DNA from: Calothrix brevissima NIES-22
GTDB lineage: Bacteria > Cyanobacteriota > Cyanobacteriia > Cyanobacteriales > Nostocaceae
DNA length: 64,000 nt
NCBI RefSeq assembly: GCF_002367995.1
Contig: NZ_AP018207.1
Location: 5,011,963 to 5,075,962, forward strand
Direction: 5' to 3'
Of this stretch, positions 31,680 to 43,227 are shown one piece after another. Both the position numbers and the translations under genes were made by a program. Under the pieces are notes generated by a model. That model had not been told where the DNA came from and ran no database searches. It saw nothing but the letters and a program-made list of their open reading frames with translations. The first letter of the stretch is position 1. Each line of letters starts with the position of its first letter.

Positions 31680-31703
31680 GTTGTGGATTTTTTGGTGAAG
31701 GTT

Positions 31704-31750
31704 GTCATTTGTCATTTGTCATTTGTCATTTGTCATTTGTCATTTGTCAT
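31704..31750. repeat. GTCATTT heptamer tandem repeat
   Basis: Six and two-thirds perfect head-to-tail copies, non-coding, just after the SRPBCC gene. Confidence 0.9.
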
Positions 31751-37640: not shown

Positions 37641-38555
37641 CTAGGCTTTTGGTGCTGGATTTTGAGAACAGCGATCGAACCATTCCTGGTATTTTTGGCG
37701 GTATTCCTCGTTGTCAACCACAATCGAGACTCGTACCTGCTGACAACCGGGTTGCTTTTCGAGAGCGATCGCATTTAAAAGCAAGCTAGCAATTTTCGCC
37801 GAACTAAACAAGCCGCTAACAGTTAAACCATTATTTAAACCATTATCTAAATTGGTAATTTCTGGTATCTGTTGTTGCGCCAACTCAATACCAGCTATTT
37901 CCTCTGTGCCTAAATCAATTTCTGCTAGCTGTTTAGTTTCTGCTCCCACTTGTTCAACAATTAATTTCTCACGCCGCACCGGAACTTGTACCATCCGCGT
38001 TTCAATTTCTTTGCGAACAATGATATCCCCAATTTTACGTTTGCTACTATTAACAATTAATCTTTCTTCTAATAATTTAATAATCTCTTCTTCTTGAATC
38101 TCCGAGTTATTTGTGGTTACTAAATTTGGTTCTAGATTACTATTTAGAGTTTGGTTATTAGATACTTGTCCATTTAAGCCATCTGACATGATCTGCCCGC
38201 CTTGTTTATTCGCTGAGAAATTTTCTGGTAGATTTACTATTTCTGATTTATCTAAATCTACGAAAATTGATTGAGTAGGACTGTCAATGCTCTTAATTCT
38301 TTTACTGCGTAATTTTAACGATTTATATCCATTTGTTAACTCTTGACTGTGAGCTACTCGTTGAGAGATAACTAAGTTGAGGCGATTATCAGCATCTAAA
38401 GTTAAATTTTTGACTTCGCCTATGAGTTTACCATTTTTATCTAGTACGGCAAAATTTTTGACTTTACTACTCAAATTATTTATCAGTTTATTAACTCTTT
38501 GAGTCGGACTTATTGAATTAATTAGTTCCGGTTTATTTAGTAGAATTTGGCTCAT
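37641..38555 (-). CDS. PRC-barrel / YsnF-AvaK (DUF2382) protein 1
   Basis: A 304-residue protein, the most divergent of three paralogues here. The N-terminal PRC-barrel-like domain (KVKNFAVLDKNGKLIGEVKN then LTLDADNRLNLVIS) is at about residues 32-110. The DUF2382/YsnF-AvaK domain is at about 155-290 (KLLEERLIVNSSKRKIGDII, TRMVQVPVRREKLIVEQVG). AvaK of Anabaena variabilis is an akinete marker; other members are stress-induced. Its middle linker is Asn/Gln-rich. It is separated from gene 2 by heptamer repeats. Confidence 0.85.
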   Translation of the reverse strand: MSQILLNKPELINSISPTQRVNKLINNLSSKVKNFAVLDKNGKLIGEVKNLTLDADNRLNLVISQRVAHSQELTNGYKSLKLRSKRIKSIDSPTQSIFVDLDKSEIVNLPENFSANKQGGQIMSDGLNGQVSNNQTLNSNLEPNLVTTNNSEIQEEEIIKLLEERLIVNSSKRKIGDIIVRKEIETRMVQVPVRREKLIVEQVGAETKQLAEIDLGTEEIAGIELAQQQIPEITNLDNGLNNGLTVSGLFSSAKIASLLLNAIALEKQPGCQQVRVSIVVDNEEYRQKYQEWFDRCSQNPAPKA

Positions 38556-38761: not shown

Positions 38762-39646
38762 TTAACGTTCTTCAATTGGTAGACCACCAGTAGTATCTAC
38801 ATCCAATTCTTCACGGCGAATAGTAGCTTGAGCTTCAGAAGTTTCTTGTTCTACAACTTTTGTTACTCTTACTTCTTCGCGAACAACTGCTTCTTTGCGA
38901 ATATCAGGAGTTTCTTCATAAATTTCTACGCGAGCTACTTCACCTTCGCGGAAATTAGCTTCGCCAGGCGCAACAGGATGGCCTGCATCTGTGGGGGTGA
39001 CGCGCTCAATTACTACACGTTCTTTTTCTAAAGGTATTTCTATCCTTGCGGTTTCTGTTTCTACACGTTTACCAATTGCTACTTCACCAGCTTTTTGGCG
39101 TTTTTTATTAGCAATTAGTCTTTCTTCGTACAATTTCAAAGTTTGATTATCACGCTCATTGAGGTTGTACAAAGCTGGTTCTTGGGTGTAATTGTATGTA
39201 TCGCGGTTATAATTAGGTTGATAACCTGTATCTAAAGACGCAGAAGCATCTAAAGGTTGTGATGTATCAACAGCAGATGTTGCATCTACAGGATTACGAT
39301 AAACTCCACGTACCCGTTCTTCATAATCGTAATCAACTGTTGAACGTTCGTTGAATTCTGGTAAATTTTCAGCTTGTTCTCTGGTCATACCAATTACATA
39401 AACGCGATCAACGTTATAATCAATGCGCGCGCGTCCAATGGGTAGCAATACTTTTTTGCCAAAAATCCAAAAGCCTAAGTCAACAACTAAATAACGAAAA
39501 TGTCCTTCGTCATCTACTAAAACATCGCTGACTGTACCAATTTTTTCATCTCTACCATCTGCATATACACCAAGTCCTTTAATATCATCTCCTTGGAAAG
39601 TATCGTGATAATTGGGGTCAAAATCTTGTAATTTATAAAGCGCCAT
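38762..39646 (-). CDS. PRC-barrel / YsnF-AvaK (DUF2382) protein 2
   Basis: A 294-residue protein. The PRC-barrel is at residues 1-110 (MALYKLQDFDPNYHDTFQGD, GVYADGRDEKIGTVSDVLVD, FRYLVVDLGFWIFGKKVLLP). The YsnF/AvaK domain is at about 165-285 (LKLYEERLIANKKRQKAGEV, ARIEIPLEKERVVIERV, REEVRVTKVVEQETSEAQAT). Its start has the ribosome-binding site AAGGAGAAATAAA-ATG. The first 23 codons plus the whole leader are repeated four more times upstream as 301-bp units. Probable stress or resting-cell protein at the cytoplasmic side of membranes or chromatin; role unproven. Confidence 0.9.
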   Translation of the reverse strand: MALYKLQDFDPNYHDTFQGDDIKGLGVYADGRDEKIGTVSDVLVDDEGHFRYLVVDLGFWIFGKKVLLPIGRARIDYNVDRVYVIGMTREQAENLPEFNERSTVDYDYEERVRGVYRNPVDATSAVDTSQPLDASASLDTGYQPNYNRDTYNYTQEPALYNLNERDNQTLKLYEERLIANKKRQKAGEVAIGKRVETETARIEIPLEKERVVIERVTPTDAGHPVAPGEANFREGEVARVEIYEETPDIRKEAVVREEVRVTKVVEQETSEAQATIRREELDVDTTGGLPIEER

Positions 39647-39842
39647 TTTATTTCTCCTTCAGGTTTTTACTTTTCATTGGCTATTATCTAAACTAATTCA
39701 ATGTAATTTTTTATTCCTCTTTCCCTTGGCTGAATTACATATCATCTTCAGATATATATTTTTTGATATTGACGATCAGATCCCCGACTTCTTAAAGAAG
39801 TCGGGGATCTAGCTAATTATCGATAATATGCTTTATTTGCAC

Positions 39843-39947
39843 TTATTGAAATGAGAATTTCTGGTAGATACAGTAAATTTTAATATCATCTCCTTGGAAA
39901 GTATCGTGATAGTTGGGGTCAAAATCTTGTAATTTATAAAGCGCCAT
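39843..39947 (-). pseudogene. Truncated AvaK-like mini-ORF in unit 2
   Basis: 34 codons: MALYKLQDFDPNYHDTFQGD, DIK, then the out-of-family tail IYCIYQKFSFQ and TAA. Ribosome-binding site intact. It could be translated as a short peptide. Confidence 0.7.
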
Positions 39948-40143
39948 TTTATTTCTCCTTCAGGTTTTTACTTTTCATTGGCTATTATCTAAATCAATTC
40001 AATGTAATTTTTTATTCCTCTTTCCCTTGGCTGAATTACATATCATCTTCAGATATATATTTTTTGATATTGACAATCAGATCCCCGACTTCTTAAAGAA
40101 GTCGGGGATCTAGCTAATTATCGATAATATGCTTTATTTGCAC

Positions 40144-40248
40144 TTATTGAAATGAGAATTTCTGGTAGATACAGTAAATTTTAATATCATCTCCTTGGAA
40201 AGTATCGTGATAGTTGGGGTCAAAATCTTGTAATTTATAAAGCGCCAT
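40144..40248 (-). pseudogene. Truncated AvaK-like mini-ORF in unit 3
   Basis: Same 34-codon product as unit 2. In this unit the hairpin loop 130 bases upstream in the mini-ORF's direction (40381-40411) reads CTTTAAG instead of CTTAAAG. Confidence 0.7.
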
Positions 40249-40444
40249 TTTATTTCTCCTTCAGGTTTTTACTTTTCATTGGCTATTATCTAAATCAATT
40301 CAATGTAATTTTTTATTCCTCTTTCCCTTGGCTGAATTACATATCATCTTCAGATATATATTTTTTGATATTGACAATCAGATCCCCGACTTCTTTAAGA
40401 AGTCGGGGATCTAGCTAATTATCGATAATATGCTTTATTTGCAC

Positions 40445-40549
40445 TTATTGAAATGAGAATTTCTGGTAGATACAGTAAATTTTAATATCATCTCCTTGGA
40501 AAGTATCGTGATAGTTGGGGTCAAAATCTTGTAATTTATAAAGCGCCAT
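40445..40549 (-). pseudogene. Truncated AvaK-like mini-ORF in unit 4
   Basis: Identical coding content to units 2 and 3, with intact AAGGAG ribosome-binding site and ATG. Confidence 0.7.
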
Positions 40550-40745
40550 TTTATTTCTCCTTCAGGTTTTTACTTTTCATTGGCTATTATCTAAATCAAT
40601 TCAATGTAATTTTTTATTCCTCTTTCCCTTGGCTGAATTACATATCATCTTCAGATATATATTTTTTGATATTGACAATCAGATCCCCGACTTCTTAAAG
40701 AAGTCGGGGATCTAGCTAATTATCGATAATATGCTTTATTTGCAC

Positions 40746-40850
40746 TTATTGAAATGAGAATTTCTGGTAGATACAGTAAATTTTAATATCATCTCCTTGG
40801 AAAGTATCGCGGTAGTTGGGGTCAAAATCTTGTAATTTATAAAGCGCCAT
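40746..40850 (-). pseudogene. Truncated AvaK-like mini-ORF in unit 5
   Basis: As the others, but codon 14 is Arg instead of His. Its leader differs at several bases (AATTTGATGTGA in place of AATTCAATGTAA). It is the outermost unit and joins the unique sequence at about 41085. Confidence 0.7.
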
Positions 40851-41097
40851 TTTATTTCTCCTTCAGGTTTTTACTTTTCATTGGCTATTATCTAAATCAA
40901 TTTGATGTGATTTTTTATTCCTCTTTCCCTTGGCTGAATTACATATCATCTTCAGATATATATTTTTTGATATTAACGATCAGATCCCCGACTTCTTAAA
41001 GAAGTCGGGGATCTAGCTAATTATCGATAATCTACTTTACCTGCACTATTGCAATGATAATTTCCAGTAGATACAGTAAATCAAAATGGGAATTTAC

Positions 41098-41934
41098 TTA
41101 AATAGCTGTATCTCTAGGCTTATTTGTTTCGTTGACATCGAGATTACCGGAAGCATCAATATCTAACTCTTCACGGCGAATTGTTTCTTGTGCTTCTACT
41201 ATGTTGCTATCTACTACTTTTGTGACTCGAACTTCTTCGCGAACAAAAGTTTCTTTACGAATTTCGGGTGTTTCTTCGTAAACTTCTATGCGTGCTATTT
41301 CTCCTTCTTGGAAGTTTACATTTTGGCTATCTACTACGGTTTCGGAGGTGGGATTTACTCTTTCAATAACAACGCGCTCTTTTTGTAAGGGTACAGAAAC
41401 TTGTGCGGTTTCTGTTTCTATGCGCTTACCAACGGAAACTTCGCCGGCTTTGACGCGATTTTTATTTGCTATTAATCGTTCTTCGTATAGTTTAAAGGTT
41501 TGTTGATCCTGGGCGTTTAATTCATATAACTCAGGCGCAAGGTAATTAGATGTTTCCTGTGTGTTAGCTAGTTGGCTGTCAGGTGAACGATAAACATTAC
41601 GAACATTTTTTTCGTAATCTTCGTTAACAACAAGGTTTTCGCGATATTCAGGTAAACGTGTCACCTGTTCTTTGCTCAATCCATCAACATAGACTCGGTT
41701 TTCGGCATAATGAATATGCGCTAGACCGATAGGTAGTAATATTTTTTTGTTACCACTATCCCAACTGGTGTCGATTACCAGATAACGAAAGCGTCCATTG
41801 TCGTCAACTAAAGCATCAGCAACAGAACCTACTCTGACACCACCTTCAGTATAGAGTTCTAAGGCTTTAACGTCTTCACCACCAAAAACTTCGCGGTAGT
41901 TAGGCTCAAAATCTTCGAGTTTATGTAGAGGCAT
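41098..41934 (-). CDS. PRC-barrel / YsnF-AvaK (DUF2382) protein 3
   Basis: A 278-residue paralogue of the 294-residue protein. PRC-barrel residues are 1-105 (MPLHKLEDFEPNYREVFGGE, GSVADALVDDNGRFRYLVID, KKILLPIGLAHIHYAENRVY). The YsnF/AvaK domain is about 150-265 (FKLYEERLIANKNRVKAGEV, TAQVSVPLQKERVVIERVNP, REEVRVTKVVDSNIVEAQET). It lies just upstream of the 301-bp array, so the array sits between two paralogues. Its own 5' end is not part of the array. All three paralogues point the same way and may respond to the same stress. Confidence 0.88.
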   Translation of the reverse strand: MPLHKLEDFEPNYREVFGGEDVKALELYTEGGVRVGSVADALVDDNGRFRYLVIDTSWDSGNKKILLPIGLAHIHYAENRVYVDGLSKEQVTRLPEYRENLVVNEDYEKNVRNVYRSPDSQLANTQETSNYLAPELYELNAQDQQTFKLYEERLIANKNRVKAGEVSVGKRIETETAQVSVPLQKERVVIERVNPTSETVVDSQNVNFQEGEIARIEVYEETPEIRKETFVREEVRVTKVVDSNIVEAQETIRREELDIDASGNLDVNETNKPRDTAI

Positions 41935-42470
41935 AAATTTTATAAAAGTAGCTGCAAATATCTATACATAAATATAGAAATTAGAGAATTTCTTTGCCTC
42001 TGGCTGGCGACTGAATTTATTGGTGAGAGTGGTGGTATTTACTTCATTCTGAAGCACCGAAAAGTACAAAATAAAAGCTCTATTATCTAGGATGCTTAAT
42101 TTATGTATAACTATAGTTATATATAAATATATTTTATTAATTAACAGTATTTCTGGAGGATGAGAGACGTTAGCAGAAAGTGGCAATATGAAAATAGTGT
42201 AAAGATTTTTATCAACTTTATAACTGTAATTTTTAAATCAACTGGCTGTGGACTGTTTGGTAAATGGAATACAAATTTAGCTTTATATAAATCAAATGGG
42301 GATAAGACTATAAGAAGAAATGATGAAATAATATTGACTTGTTTGCGAAAAATTAAATAAGAGTTGTGTAGACTACCAAAGTTATGATGATTTATTTCCA
42401 GTTTTTGATTTAATTAATAGTTGGTTTAGAGTAAAGATAAAACCTCACTCATCAAAATGGCAAAGTTTGT

Positions 42471-42879: not shown

Positions 42880-42910
42880 CTACGGGGTGTATTTGTTGCA
42901 TTTTTGTTTT

Positions 42911-43099
42911 CAGGCGTTACATTAACAATGTCAGGCGTTACATTAACAATGTAAGTCGATACATTAACAATGTCAGGCGTTACATTAACAATGTAAGTCG
43001 ATACATTAACAATGTCAGGCGTTACATTAACAATGTAAGTCGATACATTAACAATGTCAGGCGTTACATTAACAATGTCAGGCGTTACATTAACAATGT
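42911..43099. repeat. Nine tandem 21-bp palindromic repeats
   Basis: Units are CAGGCGTTACATTAACAATG-T (six) and AAGTCGATACATTAACAATG-T (three), in the order AABABABAA. Each contains the inverted repeat ACATT-AAC-AATGT. Because 21 is divisible by 3, frames on both strands stay open (RRYINNV and SRYINNV repeats on plus), but no start signals support coding. The even spacing, about two helix turns, resembles an iteron or protein-binding array. Confidence 0.9.
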
Positions 43100-43144
43100 C
43101 AGGCGATGCGTAGACATCGCAAAGGAAACCCCCAAACATCAGTT

Positions 43145-43227
43145 CACCGTCAACCGTCAACCGTCAACCGTCAACCGTCAACCGTCAACACTTCGACAAG
43201 CTCAGTGCGGAGCCGTCAACCGTCAAC
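43145..43227. repeat. ACCGTCA heptamer repeats with an inserted motif
   Basis: Six ACCGTCA units, then CTTCGACAAGCTCAGTGCGG, then two more units. They end two bases before the stop of the Hsp70-like gene. Confidence 0.9.

Follow-up and report, generated by a model that had tools for sequence, protein, structure and literature searches.

Five tandem copies of the start of an avaK-like gene in Calothrix brevissima, four of them with a changed putative -10 element

In Nostoc sp. PCC 7120, an array of tandem repeats upstream of hetF codes for NsiR1, an RNA of about 60 nt. NsiR1 is present in 12 tandem copies with individual promoters carrying the DIF1 motif, the central copies are identical while the peripheral ones are divergent, and targets of the RNA have been shown (PMC9045159). 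For Nostoc punctiforme, AvaK (Npun_F5452) has been reported together with the upstream neighbour Npun_F5451 and a downstream neighbour; a PRC barrel is named for AvaK, and the genes of the cluster were reported to be induced together in an alkane-overproducing strain (PMC7660261). Here, we describe an array of five 301-bp units which lies directly upstream of an avaK-like gene in Calothrix brevissima NIES-22, a cyanobacterium of the Nostocales with a genome of 9.26 Mb. The array was identified in a stretch of 64,000 nucleotides (contig NZ_AP018207.1, 8.5 Mb in length, positions 5,011,963 to 5,075,962), which is referred to as the window and in which all positions below are counted. A third system for comparison is TR34, located before cyp51A of Aspergillus fumigatus, a tandem promoter duplication which raises expression and whose repeats are short and lie within the promoter.

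Like the NsiR1 array, the array of C. brevissima consists of tandem direct repeats upstream of a gene, with central copies that are alike and a divergent edge. Unlike the NsiR1 array, its units measure 301 bp, include a ribosome-binding site and codons, have in four cases a -10 element predicted to be dead, and have been seen in a single lineage; whereas the NsiR1 copies have their own promoters, four of the five units lack the -10 A and are predicted to be without a working promoter. The locus resembles the N. punctiforme AvaK cluster in having three adjacent genes of the family, with the AvaK or avaK-like gene in the middle and a paralog upstream. It differs in the presence of the array, which was not found in 80 related loci, a set outside which Npun_F5452 itself falls. 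With TR34 it shares the repetition of a control-region segment before a single gene; the repeats of TR34 add activity, whereas the extra units in C. brevissima contain codons and a broken -10. A literature search returned papers on NsiR1 and AvaK; among the papers listed, no array multiplying a gene start was seen, although one may still have been published.

The array is located on the minus strand at 39578 to 41081 and was identified by Tandem Repeats Finder (TRF) with a period of 301 bp, 5.0 copies, 98% match and a score of 2861. This score excludes chance, and the array is real. A preliminary description, made from the sequence alone, had reported five units at 39581 to 41085; their number was reproduced, and the ATGs of the units (39646, 39947, 40248, 40549 and 40850) are indeed spaced by exactly 301. 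Each unit contains a dispersed palindrome, a conserved promoter region, a ribosome-binding site and 23 codons. The repeated segment begins 16 bp past the stop codon of the paralog and ends with codon 23 of the avaK-like gene. All junctions between neighbouring units are alike, and direct reading of the sequence revealed no bases common to both sides at the unit junction.

Unit 1 (39578 to 39878) adjoins the gene and comprises the palindrome, a putative promoter with an intact -10, the ribosome-binding site and the first 23 avaK-like codons. The near-identity noted earlier for units 2 to 4 was borne out: unit 2 (39879 to 40179) equals unit 4 (40481 to 40781), and unit 3 (40180 to 40480) differs from them by one base inside the palindrome. 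From units 2 and 4, unit 1 differs by four bases. Unit 5 (40782 to 41081) is the outermost and measures 300 bp instead of 301; at its 5' edge it carries AGTGCAGGTAAAG, which is common to locus L064. Compared to unit 2, it differs in 17 of 302 alignment columns, with ten differences in the first 60 columns, among which are an end column and an internal gap of a single base, and seven in the other 242. This crowding is significant (Fisher p = 0.0003; p = 0.0009 without the end column and 0.003 also without the internal gap). An error of assembly in the number of units, for which the identity of units 2 and 4 and the single deviating base of unit 3 might speak, is very improbable, as units 1, 3 and 5 have their own differences, unexpected from a simple duplication by the assembler, and the outer edge of unit 5 keeps the bases common to L064. 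The doubt concerns mainly the count of the near-identical central units.

It is probable that the array represents a tandem duplication which was expanded by unequal exchange, with the gene driven by unit 1 and the extra copies being silent. A 301-bp segment, the tandem structure of which is directly visible, would have been duplicated in this lineage and later expanded to five units. The avaK-like gene would be driven by unit 1 alone, by means of an upstream box and a -10 TAGTTT, an architecture derived from comparison with relatives. The four extra units are expected to add little promoter dosage and little peptide, because the broken -10 TGATTT would make them mostly silent. Homogenisation may preserve the likeness of the units in the centre, with divergence at the outer edge, and the array may be tolerated as silent, or the silent version may have been favoured over one firing truncated messages. 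A tolerated duplication is thus most likely, rather than a control device.

The promoter architecture was obtained from relatives, for which the best 80 of 347 loci were kept, and from seven congeners. The two samples overlap, since at least three congeners (G001, G004 and G006) are also among the 80 loci (L063, L062 and L061); L104 and L105 represent one strain, and 79 of the 80 leaders are distinct. In the alignment of the 80 leaders, conservation extends from about -118 to the ATG, and seven columns are invariant in all 80 relatives, namely -87T, -82C, -77G, -73G, -72A, -49T and -48A. Five of these bases belong to a conserved upstream box, TTCAGCCAAGGGAAAGAGG in unit 1 (39716 to 39734, minus strand). 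The other two are the T and A that open a putative TANNNT -10 element, located 20 nt past the box, which in unit 1 is TAGTTT (39690 to 39695, minus strand). In the window, the full motif has two matches, unit 1 and the leader of the upstream paralog, where the same box is followed at the same 20-nt spacing by the -10 TATATT (41971 to 42014, minus strand).

For a test in which the -10 itself played no part, sequences were anchored on the box only. In the stretch of the paralog (700 to 1900 nt upstream), one box was identified in 56 of the 80 loci and none in 24, and positions 21, 22 and 26 past the box were T, A and T in all 56 box-bearing loci. The box-anchored, ungapped avaK leaders contained one box in 69 of 80 cases; of these 69, 65 had T at position 21, 57 had A at position 22 and 63 had T at position 26. 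The putative TANNNT -10 element accordingly keeps a nearly constant distance of 20 nt to the box. Of the 80 loci, 59 matched the full motif in the avaK leader and 56 in the paralog stretch, compared to none of 80 in either antisense control. An alignment of 28 leaders gave no consensus RNA pair and therefore fits promoter DNA; a structured RNA leader was also rejected on this result and on the absence of any Rfam family at gathering score within the window. A scan for consensus sigma-70 promoters was uninformative (six found, 10.9 expected), and the -10 was taken from the comparison instead. A search for a regulon with one mismatch allowed gave the upstream paralog as the sole match in the genome; the pattern was too strict for such a test, since unit 1 itself was missed.

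In bacterial promoters of the sigma-70 type, opening depends above all on the second base of the -10 element. While unit 1 has TAGTTT, units 2, 3, 4 and 5 all have TGATTT instead of TANNNT (39991 to 39996, 40292 to 40297, 40593 to 40598 and 40894 to 40899, respectively, all minus strand). The A at -48, which in the alignment is present in 80 of 80 relatives and also in seven of seven congeners and in unit 1, is a G in units 2 to 5, and no TANNNT was found 16 to 25 nt past the box in any of these four units. Because the invariant -10 A is replaced, the promoters of units 2 to 5 are predicted to be dead or weak.

The array appears to have arisen in the C. brevissima lineage, since TRF detected none before the gene, either in the 80 related loci, where 2 kb upstream was covered, or in the seven congeners, where 860 nt was covered. 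In 830,310 bases around the 80 loci, TRF gave ten rows with a period of at least 60, none of them within 2 kb upstream of the gene. A self-BLAST of the relatives for a repeated gene start gave mostly one weak copy about 0.9 to 1.6 kb upstream, which would fit the start of the paralog; three short stray matches were obtained in L104, L105 and L123.

Compared to L064, unit 5 has retained both the old outer edge (AGTGCAGGTAAAG) and the old codons 13 and 14 (TAC CGC), unit 1 has the old -10, and units 2 to 4 have the new state at all three sites. For -48 and codons 13 and 14, all four combinations of old and new states exist among the units and L064, a pattern which suggests either recombination among the units or repeated mutation. 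Residue 14 is His in the avaK-like gene; among the 80 relatives it is Arg in 57, Lys in 11, Gln in 10 and His in 2, and all seven congeners have Arg. As one possibility, a recent, unstable amplification, probably still changing, had been suggested. The absence of the array from the relatives and the near-identity of the central units agree with a recent origin; however, the diverged outer unit and the mixed site patterns show that the array is not brand new.

Several observations weigh against a silent array with unit 1 as the only promoter. The -10 element of the avaK-like gene is itself deduced from conservation, and the invariance of -48A leans on the gapped alignment, since the ungapped comparison has T and not A at position 22 in 12 of the 69 leaders, as a one-base shift would give. 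The -10 change is common to the four extra units and may go back to one event that homogenisation has spread. As a rough estimate, if two adjacent bases changed at random, one of the seven invariant columns of 118 would be struck in about 1 in 10 cases; the loss is thus suggestive, but no proof. Furthermore, the mixed site patterns could also stem from repeated mutation. Finally, the other six invariant bases, the ribosome-binding site and the ATG are intact in all extra units, and GATAAT, a possible substitute -10 with another spacing to the box, is present 7 nt further down in all five.

The last two features would also serve a promoter dosage device, as proposed in the preliminary description, in which every unit fires toward the gene and the array is selected for raised avaK-like expression; the whole conserved leader is present in each unit as well. 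Such a device is nevertheless unlikely, since the -10 A kept throughout the aligned relatives and congeners has been replaced by G in all four extra units. In addition, transcripts from the outer units would have to cross the palindrome hairpins seen on folding of unit 1. This fold has a z of -2.63, with 2 of 100 shuffles as good, and its strength would be explainable by the palindrome.

Four open reading frames of 34 residues were confirmed within the array, at 39843 to 39947, 40144 to 40248, 40445 to 40549 and 40746 to 40850 (minus strand). Each consists of 23 gene codons and 11 junction codons, and they are alike except for residue 14 of the outermost, which is Arg and not His. The tail had been called foreign; it is common to the four extra units as stated, but represents the 5' end of the next unit, which the frame enters past codon 23 and in which it stops after 11 codons. 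With their intact ribosome-binding sites and ATGs, these frames could act as a leader device, in which transcription running on from the paralog yields a single long leader containing four translated mini-frames, or several short RNAs are made, so that translation is tuned or buffered or decoys are offered. Decoy ribosome sites and peptides from a long leader would both need read-through from upstream, because the promoters of the extra units look dead.

A long read-through leader is possible since the hairpin following the paralog has lost its right arm. In L064, G005 and G006, a hairpin of 13 to 16 bp follows the upstream gene, of which only the left arm remains in C. brevissima, read within unit 5. 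No intrinsic terminator was found in 39400 to 42100. However, little credence is given to a leader device, as no array was found in relatives and transcripts may be terminated or cleaved at the palindrome. The sameness of the four frames is no sign of constraint, since the units have been homogenised.

The palindrome stands near the place of the post-paralog hairpin of the relatives. It is a near-perfect, dispersed repeat of about 31 bp (GATCCCCGACTTCTT..AAGAAGTCGGGGATC), located at 39779 to 39809 in unit 1 and present in the four other units. Outside the array, with 40 of 163 candidates scored, it was identified elsewhere in the genome at no fewer than 39 places, including L006 to L030. Within 600 nt upstream of the gene, an arm of it was found in three of the 80 relatives and in none of the seven congeners.

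The avaK-like gene (38762 to 39646, minus strand) codes for 294 residues, with a PRC barrel (PF05239) followed by DUF2382 (PF09557), both past the curated cut-off. We take AvaK itself to have both of these domains. The gene is the middle one of a three-gene cluster with PRC barrels and DUF2382. The upstream paralog (41098 to 41934, minus strand; 278 residues) contains both domains, and for the downstream gene (37641 to 38555, minus strand) only DUF2382 was identified by Pfam. The name avaK-like is based on domain content and place in the cluster; the gene is putatively stress-related. By this gene, the closest named records are Tolypothrix sp. FACHB-123, Nostoc sp. 106C, Calothrix membranacea and Nostoc carneum.

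As a genome background, 40 stretches with 800,000 bases (418 N) were sampled, in which TRF gave 67 rows with a period of at least 60, distributed over 17 stretches. Thirty-eight rows lie fully within an open frame and have a period that is a multiple of three. The remaining 29 are divided between L152, L172 and L180, with 24 rows, and L159, L163 and L183, with five. The most regular long-period array in the sample, and the only one of these 29 rows to reach 95% match, is that of L183 (11985 to 12189), a 62-bp repeat with 3.3 copies and 97% match, across which no open reading frame of at least 40 residues is listed. Around the palindromes elsewhere, long-period arrays were found in L006, L007 and L030, all in open frames. 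No repeated gene start was present around L159, L183 and part of L152, where open reading frames were listed. The 301-bp array is set apart from the other arrays seen by its repeated gene start (checked at these three places), by a period not divisible by three and by its high identity.

Other repeats were of different kinds. Those of L152 (16600 to 19896), L172 (3542 to 5018) and L180 (399 to 1097) consist of a constant repeat with varying spacers, of the CRISPR kind. The 126-bp repeat of L159 (14744 to 16355; 12.8 copies) changes reading frame within the array, with an open frame covering 53%, and is perhaps a repeat-protein gene broken by a frameshift. In the window, a 21-bp tandem repeat at 42910 to 43105 (9.3 copies, 89% match) is open both in a plus-strand frame, repeating RRYINNV, and in a minus-strand frame, and many short arrays of 7-base units are present, for example at 31702 to 31750 and 43146 to 43189.

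A further role for the extra units would be that of a recombination reservoir, in which exchange with unit 1 moves the dead -10 beside the gene and turns it off; in a cell with many chromosome copies, live copies would be left to restore the -10. This is considered highly improbable. If true, it would mean that a stress gene varies from filament to filament, its promoter being converted by silent leader cassettes.

With the array as a probable tolerated duplication, the locus is a natural example of the multiplication of an entire gene start, consisting of promoter, ribosome-binding site and 23 codons, beside a working gene. Loss of the extra promoters appears to have occurred jointly, at a single base which the working copy has kept. 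Should the extra units be active, they would represent a new kind of leader array in cyanobacteria. As a by-product, the comparison suggests an architecture for the promoters of AvaK-type genes in Nostocales, which is directly testable.
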